Below are positions 3,378 to 19,507 of a stretch of DNA of 64,000 nt, piece after piece. The position numbers were made by a program, and so were the translations under genes. Position 1 is the first letter of the stretch; each line of letters begins with the position of its first letter. The notes beneath the pieces were generated by a model. That model saw only the letters and a program-made list of their open reading frames with translations, did no database searches and was not told the origin of the DNA. The DNA is from Tindallia sp. (GTDB lineage: Bacteria; Bacillota; Clostridia; Peptostreptococcales; Tindalliaceae). The stretch spans positions 1 through 64,000 of the forward strand of contig SLLE01000076.1 in assembly GCA_007134225.1 (NCBI GenBank), written 5' to 3'.

Positions 3378-6300
3378 ATGAAAACTCATGAGGACTTTTA
3401 TGATATGTTGTATTCACATTTTTTGAATAATACTTTTTTAAATCTTATTGATATGACAAAGGAAGGCATGGAAGCTTATCTAAAGGATGTTTCGTTAACA
3501 AAAAACCTTAAGAAAATGATTTCTAATACGGATTTCAGCTGTAAATCCGTTTACAATCTCTTAAAGCCAATGCTGCTGAAACTTTGGAATGATGAAGCTC
3601 CCAAGGATCCATTAACGTATCTTTATCAATTTACACTTTCCATGTCCTTCCCGCATGCCGTTGAGATCGAGCTTGATGAAAAATATGAAAAGGGATGTTT
3701 TTTTTACCTTGAAGGGTTACGAGTAGCGACACATATGAAGAAGGAAAACGATCAGATTTCTTTTCAGGGTAAGTATCCTATGCGCCTTGGAATCGATGAG
3801 CTGGGTGCAAACACGGCCCAATCCAAAGAATACAGGAATTTTTTAAGTGCTTTTGAAAATGAATATATTCATGAAATGATGCGTCTGAATTTCGAGGTTA
3901 CTCATCACAATACATTAGATCACATTTGTGGCGTGCATTACATGGCAGTGCTAATTGCAAAACAGCTTTATGAATTTGGAATTCCGGTTGATGTTGGCAG
4001 AGTATCCGGAGCAGCTGCAGGTCATGATTTAGGGAAGTTCGGATGTCGAAGCCTTGAATCAAAGCGCGTAGCCTATCTTCATTATTATTATACTGAGCAG
4101 TGGTTTAAAAATCGGGAAATATTTAATATTGGTCACGTTGCCTTAAACCATTCTGTATGGGACCTTGAACTTGAAAATCTACCATTGGAATCACTTATTC
4201 TTATTTATTCAGACTTTAGGGTTAAAAATAAAGCCACTGAGGAAAATCCATTCACCATGTCTTTTTTCAACCTGGACGATTCTTTTCAGGTCATTTTAAG
4301 CAAACTGGACAATGTTGATGAAGCAAAAGAAAGGCGCTACCAGCGGGTTTATGCCAAATTAAAAGACTTCGAAGACTACATGATCGATCTCGGAGTCCAG
4401 ACGGATCCAGATTTGTCGATAGAATCTGCTAGAAAATCCGGCAAAAAATACTATTCCTTAATGCATGGCACTGAAGTAACGCAAAACCTGAAATATTTTG
4501 CCATCCAGCATAACACACATTTGCTTTACCGTTTTAGGGATGAAGATTCTTTAAGCGAAATCATTGAATTGGCTCGTAATGAAAAAAATGACAAGACACT
4601 TAGAAAGTATTTGGATTTGTTTGAGGAGTACAACGCATATTTTACTCAAAAACAAAAAATTGTAACCTTGCGGTTTTTTTACGAAAAACTAACTCATCCA
4701 GAAGAAGATATTCGACGTCAATGTGCTGAACTGATTGGTAAAATCATTGGCCAGTTTGATGAGAATTATCGCAAGGAACTGCCGGAAGATGCAGAGCTTC
4801 CGCCGCCTGATATAACCAGTTTCGACTTGTTGCGCGAATATATGAAACAATTTATTAACCCGGATCACAAAATTACCGATGTTCATTCTCATTGGATTCG
4901 ATACAACCTGACAAATATGCTGTCACGTCTATTCACAACCTGTGATCAAAAAGATATAAGTCCATATAAAGATATTATCGTAGAGTTCTTTCAGGAATCT
5001 CAAGATTATGCTCAAGAGGTGGATATTAATTACCTTATGGCTATCCCCAAAATTCCCGTCTATCCAGGAGATCCAACTTTGACTGTTTTTTTTCAGTATG
5101 TTCGCTCTGCCCTTGGACAAAAAAGCATTCAAGAAGACTTGGATCTTCGAATATCAGTCCTTGAATCCCTCAATTATTTGGTGGATTACTTTAGTTATGA
5201 CAGCGATGAAATCGCATTTGTTAAAACGCTTTTTACTGAAAAACCATCTAAATCTCGAATTCCGGCAGAAAACTATATGATGCTGCGTATCGCAAAGAAG
5301 CTATTTTCAGATGAAAAAATGATCCGACCATATAATGAATTTTACGAGCTGGATATTCATAAAGTACCGGATATTCATCTGACGAATTTAAAAACCGCAA
5401 CAAACTGGGTAACAAAAAGAATCCATGTAGAGTTGTTACTGGACTATCTAAGTCAAAACCCGACGTTGAATAAGCTCTACACCGCCATGCACTTTTGCAA
5501 TTTATTAAAAGTCAGCAGCGTAGAAAGTGTAAGAATCCAAGCCGGCGAGTCGCTTGTGAAGCTTTTTCCCCAACTGCCCATGGAACAACGAAATGATGTC
5601 GCCATTGAATTGCTGCGCGCACTTGAAATTGATGGAGCACAGCATACAAAATATATCCCGGATTATCTGGGACAAATCATCATCTACCTTCAACGTGTTG
5701 AGATTGATGAAATAATTTTAGATTTAACCGAGAAAATCAAACAGGGAAATTCCGAAATTAATTCACTTCTTTTAAAAACCATCGGAGTCTTTATCCAAAA
5801 TTATCCGAAATATCAGGAGTTTTTTAATGAATTAGAAGATGAATACGACTCGCGTTTGCGAAAAATGATGGGCGTCCTGCTAAACGGTTTGGTGCATAAT
5901 CAATTTCAAATCCAACAGATCTCTTTCAGTGTATTAGGAAAGGACATTTTCGGCTCTTCCCTGCTGACACTGGAAGAAAAAGCTCACTTGTTTAAAATGA
6001 TTGCCAAAAAAATGCTTACGTTATCCAAGGAAACGGAAGATCATGAGCTTCTGTTCCTGACAAATTCTTCAAGCCTGAACCATATTTATCGTTTTGTTTC
6101 TGATTATGCGTTTTTTCATAAACCCATCGAAGTTCCAGTTCCTGAAAAGGTGGCTTTCTTTCCAGGATCTTTCGATCCATTCACCCTGGGACATAAAGAA
6201 ATCACAACAGATATTCGTAATAAAGGATTTGAGGTTTACTTAGCCATTGATGAATTTTCCTGGTCAAAAAGAACACAGCCAAATTTAATTAGAAAAAACA

Positions 6301-8276
6301 TTGCAAACATGTCGATTGCTGACGAACTTCATGTATTTATATTCCCTGAAGAATTACCTGTTAACCTTGCTAATCCGAAGGATTTAAGGAAACTTAAACA
6401 TCTTTTTCAGAATTCAGAGGTCTACCTCGTGGCAGGCAGCGATGTACTAATCAATGCATCGGCATATCGCAGTAAGGAAAATGAATTAATTCTGGATTTT
6501 GGCCACATTATCTTCGAAAGACGCAATGCGGATTATTCGCCGGATGACCACGCCCGGTTGACTCAATTAATGGAAAGAATCAACAAACCAGTGATCCGAT
6601 TAAACCTGGCACCTCAGTATGAAGATATCAGTTCATCGCAAATCCGAAACTATATCGATGAAAATCGTGACATATCACGAATGATTGACCCTCTTTGCCA
6701 GCATTATATCTATAAACAAAATCTTTACCGGAATGAGCCTCAGTACAAATCCCTGATCCAGACAATTTCGCTGGATATTGATATCAGAGATCATTTTACC
6801 TACGAGTTAATCAATAATATTGTGTCCACTTTCCATGATCATTACAACTATTCTTTTAAACAAATTGAATCCGTGCTTAAAAAACCCAACGGTCGCCTGA
6901 TCCTCATTCGTGATGTTAAGCAAAATGGCAAAGTGCTTGCCTATGCCGCCATTCACTGGATTCCTTCTGAACAGATTTATCAGGAATTTCAAAACCGAAA
7001 CATTTCTCGCTATGTCAGAGAGCAATATACCGGTCGCATCATAGCGATCGATGGAGTGTTCGCCATCGACCATCATCAGTTTGACAATTTACATCAGATT
7101 ATACTGACAGAAACCATCGCCTATGCTTTGAAACACGACTATGGCTATGCCATTTTCCAAAACAAAATTGACGAAAAAACTCCAGAAGCCGTTTTTGATA
7201 TTTTAAAGTTACATGGTTTTACCGACCTGGATTACGGTAGTGAAGGAAGTCCGGTTTTTACTGTTGATATGTCTAATCCCTGTACGCTTAATCTGGATAT
7301 TATGACGATCATCAAAGAGCCTTTCAAAAGCAATCACAATGTTCAGAAAGTCATTAACCATACCCGAACGCGCTTGCAAAAAGTATTGACTGAACTATAT
7401 CCTAGTCATTTATTGCTATCTTTTGATCGCAGCATCATTGACGAGACCCTGATCAAAAAAATATGCCATGAAAACGAGGTTCCCCCAGTGCCCTTAGATA
7501 CTAAAAAACTGGGAGAGGCTATGTGTGTTCCTTTTGGAAACGTGCTGAATCGTATTATTGTGCCTAATACCGTTACCAAATCTCTGCATACTGAGCGTAT
7601 GTTCGATCCTGACATGAAGAGCTTTAATATTCGATCTTTCCCTTACTACCTGGATTTAAAACATCAGATCCGTATGATCAATTCCTTTAACCGCCCGGTC
7701 ATTTTGGTAGACGATTTGTTGAATAAAGGATACCGAATTCGTGGTTTGGACCCATTATTGAATGAAGAAAAATTGAACGTGAAAAAAATTGTTGTAGGCT
7801 TACTCTCTGGCAGTGGAAAAGAATTAATGGAAATTCAAAATCGGGCGGTAGACAGTGCCTATTTCATTCCTAAACTTCGTCTGTGGTTTAACGAAGCATT
7901 AATGTATCCCTTTATCGGCGGTGACTATTTGTGGCGCGGATCTTATCCCAACAGTAATTTAATGCCTTCCATCAACCAAATACTGCCCTATACATCGCCG
8001 AGCTTTATCAAAGGCGTTACCAACCGACAACTTTATAATATGTCAGAGGTGTGCATCGAAAATTCCATTGCCATTCTTCATGTGCTGGAAAAGGAGTACC
8101 AGAAACTTTACGAACGAAAATTGACATTATCTTTATTGGGAGAGGTGTTTATATATCCACGATATCCTGACAATGGACCTCATATGGAATATGATTTTAG
8201 TGTTGCTCCTTCGGAACATCTGAAAAAAGACTTGGAATTGTTGCAACGACTTGAACTGATGGTTATAACATCCTAA
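3378..8276 (+). CDS. Multidomain protein: HD phosphohydrolase, long helical region, NadD/CoaD-type nucleotidylyltransferase, GNAT-like region, type I phosphoribosyltransferase-like domain
   Basis: HD residues H..(DHICGVH)..AAGHDLGKFGC..ALNHSVWD..YSDFRV; nucleotidylyltransferase FFPGSFDPFTLGHKEI, LVAGSDVL and ISSSQIRNYI; PRPP-type motif RPVILVDDLLNKGYR. Confidence 0.85.
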   Translation: MKTHEDFYDMLYSHFLNNTFLNLIDMTKEGMEAYLKDVSLTKNLKKMISNTDFSCKSVYNLLKPMLLKLWNDEAPKDPLTYLYQFTLSMSFPHAVEIELDEKYEKGCFFYLEGLRVATHMKKENDQISFQGKYPMRLGIDELGANTAQSKEYRNFLSAFENEYIHEMMRLNFEVTHHNTLDHICGVHYMAVLIAKQLYEFGIPVDVGRVSGAAAGHDLGKFGCRSLESKRVAYLHYYYTEQWFKNREIFNIGHVALNHSVWDLELENLPLESLILIYSDFRVKNKATEENPFTMSFFNLDDSFQVILSKLDNVDEAKERRYQRVYAKLKDFEDYMIDLGVQTDPDLSIESARKSGKKYYSLMHGTEVTQNLKYFAIQHNTHLLYRFRDEDSLSEIIELARNEKNDKTLRKYLDLFEEYNAYFTQKQKIVTLRFFYEKLTHPEEDIRRQCAELIGKIIGQFDENYRKELPEDAELPPPDITSFDLLREYMKQFINPDHKITDVHSHWIRYNLTNMLSRLFTTCDQKDISPYKDIIVEFFQESQDYAQEVDINYLMAIPKIPVYPGDPTLTVFFQYVRSALGQKSIQEDLDLRISVLESLNYLVDYFSYDSDEIAFVKTLFTEKPSKSRIPAENYMMLRIAKKLFSDEKMIRPYNEFYELDIHKVPDIHLTNLKTATNWVTKRIHVELLLDYLSQNPTLNKLYTAMHFCNLLKVSSVESVRIQAGESLVKLFPQLPMEQRNDVAIELLRALEIDGAQHTKYIPDYLGQIIIYLQRVEIDEIILDLTEKIKQGNSEINSLLLKTIGVFIQNYPKYQEFFNELEDEYDSRLRKMMGVLLNGLVHNQFQIQQISFSVLGKDIFGSSLLTLEEKAHLFKMIAKKMLTLSKETEDHELLFLTNSSSLNHIYRFVSDYAFFHKPIEVPVPEKVAFFPGSFDPFTLGHKEITTDIRNKGFEVYLAIDEFSWSKRTQPNLIRKNIANMSIADELHVFIFPEELPVNLANPKDLRKLKHLFQNSEVYLVAGSDVLINASAYRSKENELILDFGHIIFERRNADYSPDDHARLTQLMERINKPVIRLNLAPQYEDISSSQIRNYIDENRDISRMIDPLCQHYIYKQNLYRNEPQYKSLIQTISLDIDIRDHFTYELINNIVSTFHDHYNYSFKQIESVLKKPNGRLILIRDVKQNGKVLAYAAIHWIPSEQIYQEFQNRNISRYVREQYTGRIIAIDGVFAIDHHQFDNLHQIILTETIAYALKHDYGYAIFQNKIDEKTPEAVFDILKLHGFTDLDYGSEGSPVFTVDMSNPCTLNLDIMTIIKEPFKSNHNVQKVINHTRTRLQKVLTELYPSHLLLSFDRSIIDETLIKKICHENEVPPVPLDTKKLGEAMCVPFGNVLNRIIVPNTVTKSLHTERMFDPDMKSFNIRSFPYYLDLKHQIRMINSFNRPVILVDDLLNKGYRIRGLDPLLNEEKLNVKKIVVGLLSGSGKELMEIQNRAVDSAYFIPKLRLWFNEALMYPFIGGDYLWRGSYPNSNLMPSINQILPYTSPSFIKGVTNRQLYNMSEVCIENSIAILHVLEKEYQKLYERKLTLSLLGEVFIYPRYPDNGPHMEYDFSVAPSEHLKKDLELLQRLELMVITS

Positions 8277-8290
8277 AGGGAGGTAATGTT

Positions 8291-9565
8291 TTGTATTATT
8301 TTTACCAATTAAAGGGATCTATTTTAGTTTCAAATCAGGAACATCCGGAGCTTCATGCCATCAGCCAACAACAAGCATCCACGGCCCAGCAACGAATTTA
8401 TTGGCTCGTGAAGAGAAACCCACTTCGCAGTCACGTTTGCGCCTGTATTATGGAACCATGGCATCTTTTTTTAGAAGAAGAATCCCTAGCTTTATTGAAT
8501 AAAGAAATAGATTTACTCCCTTCACAAGAGGAACAACTAAAGAATCTGGAAGCAGAAATACCCTGGATCCTCGACAGAATTAACTCAAAACATGCCTATA
8601 CGCTAAACACAAATCATCCCCGCTGGAAAGAACGATTGGATGATCCATTGATTAAAGGCAGCCGAATCAATATCGCTGGTCTTGGTGATGTCGGGGGCAC
8701 CCTTCTCACAGGTCTCCGTATGCAGCCCATCGGCAAAATCAATTCAATCGGCATTTTTGATTTATCCAGAGACAAAATGAACCGATGGGAACAGGAAGCT
8801 AATCAAATAGCCAGCATGAACTATGATCAGCATCCCCCGGTTCATATGATTTCTGAAAATCAACTTTTTGACTGTGATATCTTCCTATTTTGTATCGCGA
8901 AGCAAATACCCGAGTTGGGAACAGATGTTAGCGACGTGCGGATGGCGCAGCTGGAGGCCAATGCCAATATTGTTAAAATATATGCACAAAAGGCCAGGTC
9001 AGCTAAATTCAAGGGTCTGTTTGCTGTGATTTCCGACCCGGTAGACCAGCTTTGTAAAATTGCCTATGAGAGCAGCAACTATAATGAAGCAGGTGAAATT
9101 GATTTGGAAGGACTGTTTCCCGAGCAGGTAAAAGGATTTGGTTTAGGGGTTATGAATGCCAGAGCCAATTACTATGCAATAAAACACGAAAACAGCCGTC
9201 ATTACCTTAAGGAAGGTCGTGCCTTCGGGCCCCACGGCGCCGGACTTTTTATATTAAATTCGCTGATTAATTACAACGAAAAGATCTCCAGTGATTTAAC
9301 ACAGAAAACACTGACAGCTAATTTATCGGTTCGAAAAACTGGTTATAAGCCCTTTGTTGCCCCAGCGTTATCATCAGGATGTTTTTCGATCCTGGCAGCC
9401 ATCACTGGAGAAGAACAGTATAGTACCACTTTCATGGGAGGCGTTTACTTCGGTAGCCGAAATTGGCTTCAGCCTTTTGGCCCAGCCTGGGAAACCTATA
9501 AACTTCCGAAGCCCGTGGCTGAAACACTACAAAATACTTGGAGAAAGTTGGATCAAACAAAATGA
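8291..9565 (+). CDS. Divergent lactate/malate dehydrogenase-like Rossmann protein
   Basis: TTG start with gggaggtaa RBS; GLGDVGGTLL, IFDLSRDKMNRWEQE, FAVISDPVDQLC, KGFGLGVMNARANYYA and AFGPHGAG parallel the LDH/MDH fold (GxGxVG, VSNPVD-like, H-G region). Confidence 0.6.
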   Translation: MYYFYQLKGSILVSNQEHPELHAISQQQASTAQQRIYWLVKRNPLRSHVCACIMEPWHLFLEEESLALLNKEIDLLPSQEEQLKNLEAEIPWILDRINSKHAYTLNTNHPRWKERLDDPLIKGSRINIAGLGDVGGTLLTGLRMQPIGKINSIGIFDLSRDKMNRWEQEANQIASMNYDQHPPVHMISENQLFDCDIFLFCIAKQIPELGTDVSDVRMAQLEANANIVKIYAQKARSAKFKGLFAVISDPVDQLCKIAYESSNYNEAGEIDLEGLFPEQVKGFGLGVMNARANYYAIKHENSRHYLKEGRAFGPHGAGLFILNSLINYNEKISSDLTQKTLTANLSVRKTGYKPFVAPALSSGCFSILAAITGEEQYSTTFMGGVYFGSRNWLQPFGPAWETYKLPKPVAETLQNTWRKLDQTK

Positions 9566-17590: not shown

Positions 17591-18535
17591 ATGGGTATTT
17601 TAAATCAGCTTAATCCATTAGCGATAGTCATTATCGTTTTTATTCTGATCATCTTTTTTAGTTCTTTTATCATTTCCTTTACGGTTCGGATTAAGTATCG
17701 GCAGCTTGGCAATAGTTTAGAGGAGATCAAGTCTGATCGTTCCGGCCATCCGGTTCTAAAATCTATTGTTGAAAATTATAAAGAAGCCGCTTCTGGAAAT
17801 CATCATGAAGTAAACACACAGGCTATTATCGAACAATTCTTCAACCGTGAGTTTCGCTCACTTTCCATTGCTGAGCGTTTTACTAAAAGCGCTGTCTCTT
17901 TAATGATTATTCTTGGACTTTTGGGGACATTCTATGGGCTGACCCTTTCCATCGGAAAATTGGTGGAGCTTTTGAGTGCTGGTGAAAACGTTGAAATGCT
18001 GACCAGTATGGATTCCATTATTGGCGGATTGATTGAATCGGTTCGGGGAATGTCTGTGGCCTTTATTACTTCGTTGTTTGCCATCTCTTGCTCGGTAATC
18101 CTGACGATTGTTCATATTTTCAGTAATATTGAAGAATCAAGAGAGAAGCTTTTTGTTGATATTGAAGAATATCTGGACAATGTGGTGGCATTAGAATTGT
18201 CACGGGAAAAGGAAAGTGAATATGAAATGCTAAGTAACGCTTTACAGGCAACGTTGAATGATTTCGCCACCAAAATGGAGACCAATTTCAGTTTCGTTGT
18301 AGACGGTTTTCAGGGACCTCTCCAGGCAGCTACAGCAGAAATTGGCAATGCCTCTGATCAGTTACTTAAAAGCATCACCCAATTTGACCAGTCCATTGAT
18401 AAATTTCAGGAAAACGCCCGGGACTTTTCAGAATTCAATCATCACTTGCGAAGCAATATCGACCGCATGAATGTCGGATTTGCTGACTTGACTGAGGTCA
18501 TTAAAACCACTAATGAGAAGCTTGATGAGCACTAG
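17591..18535 (+). CDS. MotA/TolQ/ExbB-family proton channel protein
   Basis: N-terminal TM; LMIILGLLGTFYGLTLSIGKLVELL...GMSVAFITSLFAISCSVIL. Confidence 0.8.
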   Translation: MGILNQLNPLAIVIIVFILIIFFSSFIISFTVRIKYRQLGNSLEEIKSDRSGHPVLKSIVENYKEAASGNHHEVNTQAIIEQFFNREFRSLSIAERFTKSAVSLMIILGLLGTFYGLTLSIGKLVELLSAGENVEMLTSMDSIIGGLIESVRGMSVAFITSLFAISCSVILTIVHIFSNIEESREKLFVDIEEYLDNVVALELSREKESEYEMLSNALQATLNDFATKMETNFSFVVDGFQGPLQAATAEIGNASDQLLKSITQFDQSIDKFQENARDFSEFNHHLRSNIDRMNVGFADLTEVIKTTNEKLDEH

Positions 18536-18565
18536 TGAATGAATTGATTGAAAGGCGGTCATTTG

Positions 18566-19507
18566 ATGAAAATCAGGAGAAGAAACTTCAAAAAACAATC
18601 TGAAGCAGAGAATTTTTGGCCTTCCTTTACAGATATGATTTCAACCATTGCATTGGTTCTTTTTTTCTTGATGCTCCTGGCCTATGTCCAGAACATCATA
18701 TCAGGGAAAAATCTGGAGTTTGCTGAACGACAGGTCCTGGATACTCAACAGAGACTGGAACAGGCCAATGTTGAAATCAGCCAGGCAGAAGATAACCTTA
18801 GGTTGATTGAAGATCGCCTGGAAGAGGTCAAGGCTGAAGTGGAGGAGGGTGAAATTGCCCTTCAATTGTCTGAGGAGCAGATTGAAGAACAACGTGAGAT
18901 TATCGCGGAAAGTAATCGGGAACTGGGACAACTGCGTACGCGCCTGGAGAGCGTTGCGGTTTTGAGGCTGGATGTTTTGGAAAGAGTAAAAGCATCCATC
19001 GAATCAGAGCTGGGAACAAGAACGGCAGATGGGGATCCGTTAGTCAGTATCGCGGAAAACGGAAATATTGTCATTAATGAAGGGCTTGTTTTTGACTATA
19101 ACTCTGCCACAGTAAAATCAGACGGAAGAGAACTTTTAGATCAACTCGCAAGTGCTTTCGAACGGGTCTTAAACGATCGCTCCACACGAAACAATGTGGA
19201 TGCCATTAGTATTCAAGGCCATACTGACAACACTGGAAGTCCGGAGTACAATCGGGATCTCTCCACAAGACGTGCCACTTCCGTGGTAAATCATATGCTG
19301 ACTTCCAATCCTAACCTGGAAAGAAAATATGCTGATCATTTTGCTGCTACTGGCTATTCAGAATTCAGACCAATTGCGACCAATAGCACAGCCGCCGGAA
19401 GAGCACGGAATCGACGCATTGAAATATCCATTATTTTAAAAGACGATCAGGTGCAAAACATTATTGAAACATATTTAGAAGACTCCATGAATATTTTTGA
19501 AGAATGA
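18566..19507 (+). CDS. OmpA/MotB-family protein, stator partner
   Basis: FWPSFTDMISTIALVLFFLMLLAYV (TM with Asp), coiled coil, OmpA-like domain IQGHTDNTGSPEYNRDLSTRRA...GRARNRRIEI. ATG at 18566 has RBS aaaggcgg. Confidence 0.85.
   Translation: MKIRRRNFKKQSEAENFWPSFTDMISTIALVLFFLMLLAYVQNIISGKNLEFAERQVLDTQQRLEQANVEISQAEDNLRLIEDRLEEVKAEVEEGEIALQLSEEQIEEQREIIAESNRELGQLRTRLESVAVLRLDVLERVKASIESELGTRTADGDPLVSIAENGNIVINEGLVFDYNSATVKSDGRELLDQLASAFERVLNDRSTRNNVDAISIQGHTDNTGSPEYNRDLSTRRATSVVNHMLTSNPNLERKYADHFAATGYSEFRPIATNSTAAGRARNRRIEISIILKDDQVQNIIETYLEDSMNIFEE

Follow-up and report, generated by a model that had tools for sequence, protein, structure and literature searches.

The 64,000-nucleotide window analyzed here (the whole stretch of DNA, from a Tindallia-like genome of the Clostridia) encodes, in one uninterrupted gene, a 1632-amino-acid protein that we call BIG. 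It joins an HD domain, a HEAT-like solenoid, a NadD/NMNAT-like transferase, a degenerate GNAT-like insert, and an altered type I phosphoribosyltransferase (PRTase) fold, in that order, and it is the first gene of a strict three-gene operon whose other products are two redox proteins. We propose, with a probability of about 0.35, that BIG is a single-chain enzyme that both makes and hydrolyses an NAD-type dinucleotide; its HD domain would proofread, and the enzyme would serve the two redox partners. The parts of BIG are of known kinds; as far as we found, the assembly and the operon are undescribed, since no description of either turned up in Pfam, NCBIfam, PADLOC, PDB sequences, or open papers (subscription papers lay outside the search).

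Domain composition of BIG

A preliminary description of this DNA had predicted a single 1632-amino-acid polypeptide, and the open reading frame and all of the motifs quoted for it are present. A Shine-Dalgarno-like GAGGGGGAGAG precedes the ATG, and the ribosome site is clear. The gene and its domains are as follows.

3378..8276, forward strand: BIG, 1632-aa multidomain protein; intact open reading frame with an ATG start
3825..4397, forward strand: HD domain, residues ~150-340 (profiles, invariant residues)
4455..6122, forward strand: HEAT-like all-helical solenoid, residues ~360-915 (AlphaFold, Foldseek)
6141..6737, forward strand: NadD/NMNAT-like nucleotidyltransferase, residues ~922-1120, with GSFDPFTLGH, SWSK, GSD, and ISSSQIR (profiles, structure, motifs)
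6750..7277, forward strand: GNAT-like region, residues ~1125-1300, poorly conserved and partly deleted in some homologs
7290..7907, forward strand: type I PRTase-fold domain, residues ~1305-1510, with the altered loop VILVDDLLNKGYR and a conserved PNTVTKSLHTE (profiles, motifs)
7908..8273, forward strand: mostly helical C-terminal extension, residues 1511-1632 (model, alignment)

Full-length relatives of BIG, 33 to 91% identical, occur across Clostridia and Atribacterota. Across 79 full-length homologs there is next to no variation in the HD ligands or the transferase motifs, a retention far beyond chance; the loss of catalytic residues that the preliminary description had named as grounds against its proposal was not found. 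We built AlphaFold2 models of BIG from the window sequence and the sequences of related loci, and both parts were modeled confidently (mean pLDDT of 88.7 for residues 905-1632 and 88.4 for residues 1-925). Foldseek searches with the C-terminal model returned NadD/NMNAT structures first and then PPAT. Those with the N-terminal model returned HEAT-repeat proteins (karyopherins, SF3B1, and the PP2A scaffold), so that the stretch earlier noted as about 550 amino acids of helical sequence is a HEAT-like solenoid; these matches dominated the search, which gave no independent structural confirmation of the HD fold. The presence of HD, NadD-like, and PRTase-fold parts in a single chain, as first described, is supported.

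The transferase is recognized by PF01467 in the window protein (5.9e-8), and TIGR00482 (NadD) matches the domain over its whole length (1.1e-12) with 48 bits, short of the curated cut-off of 112 bits; BIG homologs in related genomes score 33 to 58 bits, also over the whole length. F932, D933, and P934 are invariant in the 79 homologs, H939 and R1090 are kept in 78, S1086 in 76, and S1085 in 75, and the GxFDPF..H, GSD, and ISSx(4)R motifs are retained in 75 to 79 of the 79. Y1030, likewise invariant, occupies what we take, from motif alignment and general knowledge of NMNAT, to be the position of the ring-stacking Trp in NadD/NMNAT. One highly divergent copy of BIG (L106:7523-11893) has Gln in place of the transferase His and keeps the HD and PRTase motifs.

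In the HD domain, the putative metal ligands H182, H216, D217, H235, and D279 are invariant (79/79 homologs) and H258 is kept in 78; these roles are assigned from residue order and invariance. The order, H...HD...H...H...D, is the six-ligand pattern of dinuclear YqeK (PMC8177086). The suggested link to NadD and YqeK is supported. PF01966 (HD) matches the window protein alone weakly (E=0.03) and 37 of the 41 family members searched (best 3.5e-7), and NF045665 (DVU_1551-family NTP transferase) matches the HD stretch in 40 of the 41 (best 5e-7); we regard the HD assignment as convincing at the level of the family and weak from the single sequence. The YqeK model TIGR00488 matched none of the 41 HD domains, whose matches were to NF045665, TIGR00295, and HDIG, and in the window's own genome (G000) it found only the separate yqeK. 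These profiles also show a likeness to HDIG/HD-GYP enzymes. HD-GYP enzymes carry an HH pair among their ligands (PMC8177086); in BIG, Asn257, invariant in the family, precedes H258, so there is no such pair, and GYP, the other mark of an HD-GYP phosphodiesterase, is absent from the aligned region.

Evidence for the PRTase fold comes from PF00156, which matches 23 of 41 members with weak E-values (best 1.1e-4) and the window protein itself not at all, from an adenine-PRTase model (30 of 41, again weak), and from one weak PDB sequence match that covers the loop. D1445 is kept in 78 of the 79 homologs, D1446 in 74, G1451 and R1453 in 77 each, and K1450 in 65. The loop nevertheless failed a test for a PRPP loop (an acidic pair followed by T-G-x-T): the DD and the G are kept, and the Thr residues are replaced in nearly all homologs to give (K/S)-G-x-R. 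With T-G-x-T lost, PRPP binding of the ordinary kind should not be taken for granted, and of the PRPP-binding-type motif originally proposed only the DD...G.R framework stands.

In the GNAT-like region, PF00583 (GNAT) matches only 1 of the 41 members (9.4e-5), and a single acetyltransferase appears among the top 50 Foldseek matches of the C-terminal model; it would correspond to the GNAT-like part, a placement made from Foldseek output that carries no aligned residues. A working GNAT is not supported: the region is degenerate, it is shortened in L035, L036, L062, L066, and L071, and no acetyl-CoA loop was seen in the homolog alignment.

Synthetic and hydrolytic domains that oppose each other in one chain, both intact, would also fit a Rel/SpoT-type logic, in which a nucleotide messenger (e.g., ApnN or an adenylylated nucleotide) produced by the nucleotidyltransferase is broken down by the HD domain, the HEAT, GNAT-like, and PRTase-fold parts sense, and the partner proteins report or adjust redox state. 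The degenerate GNAT and the altered PRTase loop suit sensing over catalysis, and such signaling would agree with the HDIG/HD-GYP likeness and with the cleavage of Ap4A by YqeK (PMC8177086). However, the transferase is clearly of the NadD/NMNAT class, which is known to adenylylate pyridine mononucleotides; no effector is linked to BIG, nor is a riboswitch, none lying directly upstream of it in the window or in 14 relatives; and all-or-none inheritance with two redox proteins, as documented below, is unexpected for a messenger enzyme. We consider signaling a serious but unlikely alternative.

A three-gene operon with two redox proteins

The genomic context, absent from the preliminary description, ties BIG to two genes downstream.

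8291..9565, forward strand: LDH/MDH-like protein, 424 aa, second operon gene, with an extra N-terminal ~115 aa
9562..10614, forward strand: FMN_red-family flavoprotein, ~350 aa, third operon gene, with four invariant cysteines (CX2CX4CX8C)

The ATG of the flavoprotein gene overlaps the stop of the LDH-like gene. Where a locus extends far enough, both genes almost always adjoin BIG, and no other gene follows it consistently in those loci. The exceptions are L032, an Atribacterota locus with no flavoprotein gene next door, and extra copies of BIG. When 60 related genomes were searched at the protein level, the three genes proved to be all-or-none, with BIG present in 34 (41 if NadD-only matches are counted) and absent from 26. 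The LDH-like gene occurs in exactly the 34 BIG genomes, and 33 of these, all but the fragmented G035, also carry the flavoprotein gene; both genes are found in 0 of the 26 others (Fisher p about 1e-17 and 4e-16, values that ignore shared ancestry). Because presence varies inside families f2, f3, f9, f10, and f11, this co-occurrence does not reflect one ancestral split.

The second protein was assigned by profile (Ldh_1_N; best PDB sequence match, 3.9e-9). It shares with lactate and malate dehydrogenases the nucleotide-binding half and the equivalents of R109, R171, and H195, and differs from them in its added N-terminal part, in the loss of the catalytic Asp168 (here an invariant Met278), and in the change of Asn140 to Asp. 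With these two substitutions, normal lactate chemistry is unlikely. The third protein resembles iron-sulfur flavoproteins and FMN_red enzymes in its FMN_red domain (8e-19) and in the four invariant cysteines in the first part of that domain, which may hold an iron-sulfur cluster. It differs in the CX2CX4CX8C spacing and in an N-terminal domain of ~160 amino acids for which we found no known relatives and no PDB relative by sequence.

In a more far-reaching version of our proposal, the operon would both produce and consume a dinucleotide cofactor, pyridine-like or otherwise, that is new to science. BIG would assemble this cofactor with its PRTase and NadD-like domains and edit it with its HD domain, and the altered LDH-like protein and cysteine-rich flavoprotein would be the redox users dedicated to it. 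We give this version only a small chance.

Distribution and relation to housekeeping NAD metabolism

Six exact peptide patterns, run against 85,488 species genomes, yielded 50 loci, and in a wider draw from the class 17 of 197 genomes carried BIG. Among the named hosts are Tindallia, Anoxynatronum, Fervidicella, Marinisporobacter, Alkalithermobacter, Anaerovorax, Peptoclostridium litorale, and several Atribacterota. In a quick tree, the Atribacterota copies nest among Clostridia beside Alkalithermobacter, a placement made unsure by long branches, and all three operon genes of Atribacterota have their nearest outside relatives in the same part of Clostridia. Given this nesting and the matching relatives of the three genes, the operon probably reached Atribacterota as a unit. 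We rejected a defense system: none of the three proteins has a PADLOC match, there is no phage copy, and viral contigs give two tiny NadD-like matches only. One plasmid match is a 2.6-Mb Acetoanaerobium record with no genes listed at that place, most likely a chromosome. Elsewhere in the window, at 17591-19507, lies a pair of MotA/ZorA-like and OmpA/MotB-like genes, a MotAB-type stator candidate with Zorya scores far under the cut-off.

Five genomes (G016, G038, G209, G039, and G029) carry an extra BIG copy without the LDH-like and flavoprotein genes; these copies, together with the L032 locus, indicate that the partners are not always needed. An APH-family kinase gene adjoins the extra copy in G016, G209, and G039, which lie on separate branches, and such a kinase occurs in 11 of the 60 relatives, every one of them BIG-positive (p=0.0014, not phylogeny-corrected). 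Its sites include one in the window's own genome (G000:C115:8464-9363; L123 7450-8439) and L103:7539-8474, L105:12905-13843, and L106:6589-7506. In Tindalliaceae the kinase gene adjoins a glutamate dehydrogenase gene; the kinase neighbors name no pathway. In two f11 genomes, a panB-like gene and a DUF2520 Rossmann gene (L104:6337-7170 and L103:2340-3173) lie upstream of partner-less copies. In G189, an FMN riboswitch (L133:6067-6185) precedes a RibU-like transporter gene ~1.5 kb upstream of BIG.

Canonical nadD scores above the cut-off in 59 of the 60 relatives and yqeK is found in 54, and in the window's own genome the two are adjacent at C162. On these counts we rejected BIG as a replacement for NadD or YqeK. 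Since ordinary nadD and mostly yqeK are kept, BIG is an addition to housekeeping NAD synthesis, which speaks against plain cofactor salvage, one of the roles first suggested. The synthesis of a pseudo-NAD, another of those roles, is possible. NAD itself is, for the same reason, not the obvious product. Three genomes of family f7 (G012, G023, and G034) are BIG-positive without a clear yqeK, and two of the three are incomplete. A link to de novo NAD synthesis was rejected, as nadA is uncorrelated with BIG (p=0.6, 60 relatives), and no NAD gene is linked to BIG in the neighborhoods compared.

Canonical nicotinate PRTase is rarer in genomes with BIG (16/34 versus 22/26 BIG-negative genomes; p=0.003), an effect that weakens to p=0.09 once a short homolog is counted. 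This difference, the presence of canonical NadD, and the altered PRTase loop would be consistent with BIG as a regulator of ordinary NAD/PRPP metabolism. In that role it would bind nucleotides with its NMNAT, HD, and PRTase folds, catalyze little itself, and govern the two redox enzymes or the supply of NAD. Unlike typical pseudo-enzymes, however, BIG keeps its putative metal ligands and transferase motifs invariant at catalytic positions, and we think such a regulator quite unlikely.

Among L038, L060, L062, L067, L071, L136, L137, and L138, glutamate dehydrogenase lies within a few genes of the operon on several separate branches; on others the neighbors are pyrK/pyrD/pyrC, carAB, or NfnAB-like genes. 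The recurrence of the glutamate dehydrogenase, pyrimidine, and NfnAB-like neighbors is too weak to build on and could be chance. Taken at face value, glutamate dehydrogenase would suit metabolite-damage control: BIG would clear and remake NAD(P) or related nucleotides that have been damaged, and its two redox partners would mend a by-product of amino-acid or 2-oxoacid metabolism. Proofreading by a NadD-YqeK fusion offers a precedent (PMC9426524), and a system additional to nadD-yqeK would fit this role. Yet the linkage is weak after allowing for the number of families examined, and a 1632-amino-acid enzyme is an expensive repair tool; we judge damage control improbable.

Proposed function and comparison with known systems

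The BIG system stands apart from the housekeeping synthesis of NAD and is linked to two redox proteins, which makes either a special dinucleotide or a role in editing plausible. In the make-and-hydrolyse reading, which is the most direct, BIG would be a bifunctional transferase-hydrolase built on a scaffold, handling nucleotides for a self-contained redox system of three proteins. The NadD-like domain would move a nucleotide, probably AMP from ATP, to an aromatic-base mononucleotide to form an NAD-type dinucleotide, and the HD domain, with its YqeK-like set of six metal ligands, would hydrolyse faulty or surplus product. The HEAT solenoid may join these two domains and dock partners, the PRTase-fold domain may supply the mononucleotide from PRPP or sense PRPP or nucleotides, and the LDH-like protein and cysteine-rich flavoprotein would make or use the dinucleotide. 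We infer these reactions and substrates, as well as the roles of the partners, the PRTase part, and the degenerate GNAT, from domain content, conservation, and context. We count against this reading that no NAD gene is linked to BIG, that the divergent L106 copy has lost its transferase His, and that the LDH-like partner has lost a catalytic residue.

Two apparently intact, opposed active sites in an enzyme of ~1600 amino acids, kept with the same redox genes over many Clostridia families and Atribacterota, make a clear case of missing metabolism. Should BIG make a new dinucleotide, a cofactor has gone unnoticed until now; should it edit NAD, the NadD-YqeK proofreading idea extends to a dedicated multi-protein system; and should its role be signaling, BIG would be a new messenger enzyme.

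Among known systems, BIG resembles NadD/NMNAT (TIGR00482) in fold, in the whole-length profile match, and in the GxFDPx(4)H and ISSx(4)R active-site motifs, but scores about half or less of the family cut-off, has Tyr at the presumed ring-stacking position, and carries its own conserved DEFSWSK(R/K)TQP motif. Most HD domains of the family match the DVU_1551 NTP transferase model (NF045665), named for a nucleotidyltransferase family, although the match is weak in the window protein (0.03) and confined to the HD stretch. The nearest described logic is that of the mycoplasma NadD-YqeK fusion (JCVISYN3A_0380), which has been reported to proofread in NAD synthesis (PMC9426524). In both proteins a single chain carries a NadD-type transferase together with an HD hydrolase that has the six-ligand HD pattern of YqeK. 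BIG differs in the ~550-amino-acid HEAT solenoid between the two and in its added GNAT-like and PRTase-fold domains, in falling below the NadD cut-off in genomes that keep a separate nadD and mostly yqeK, and in its fixed operon with two redox proteins.
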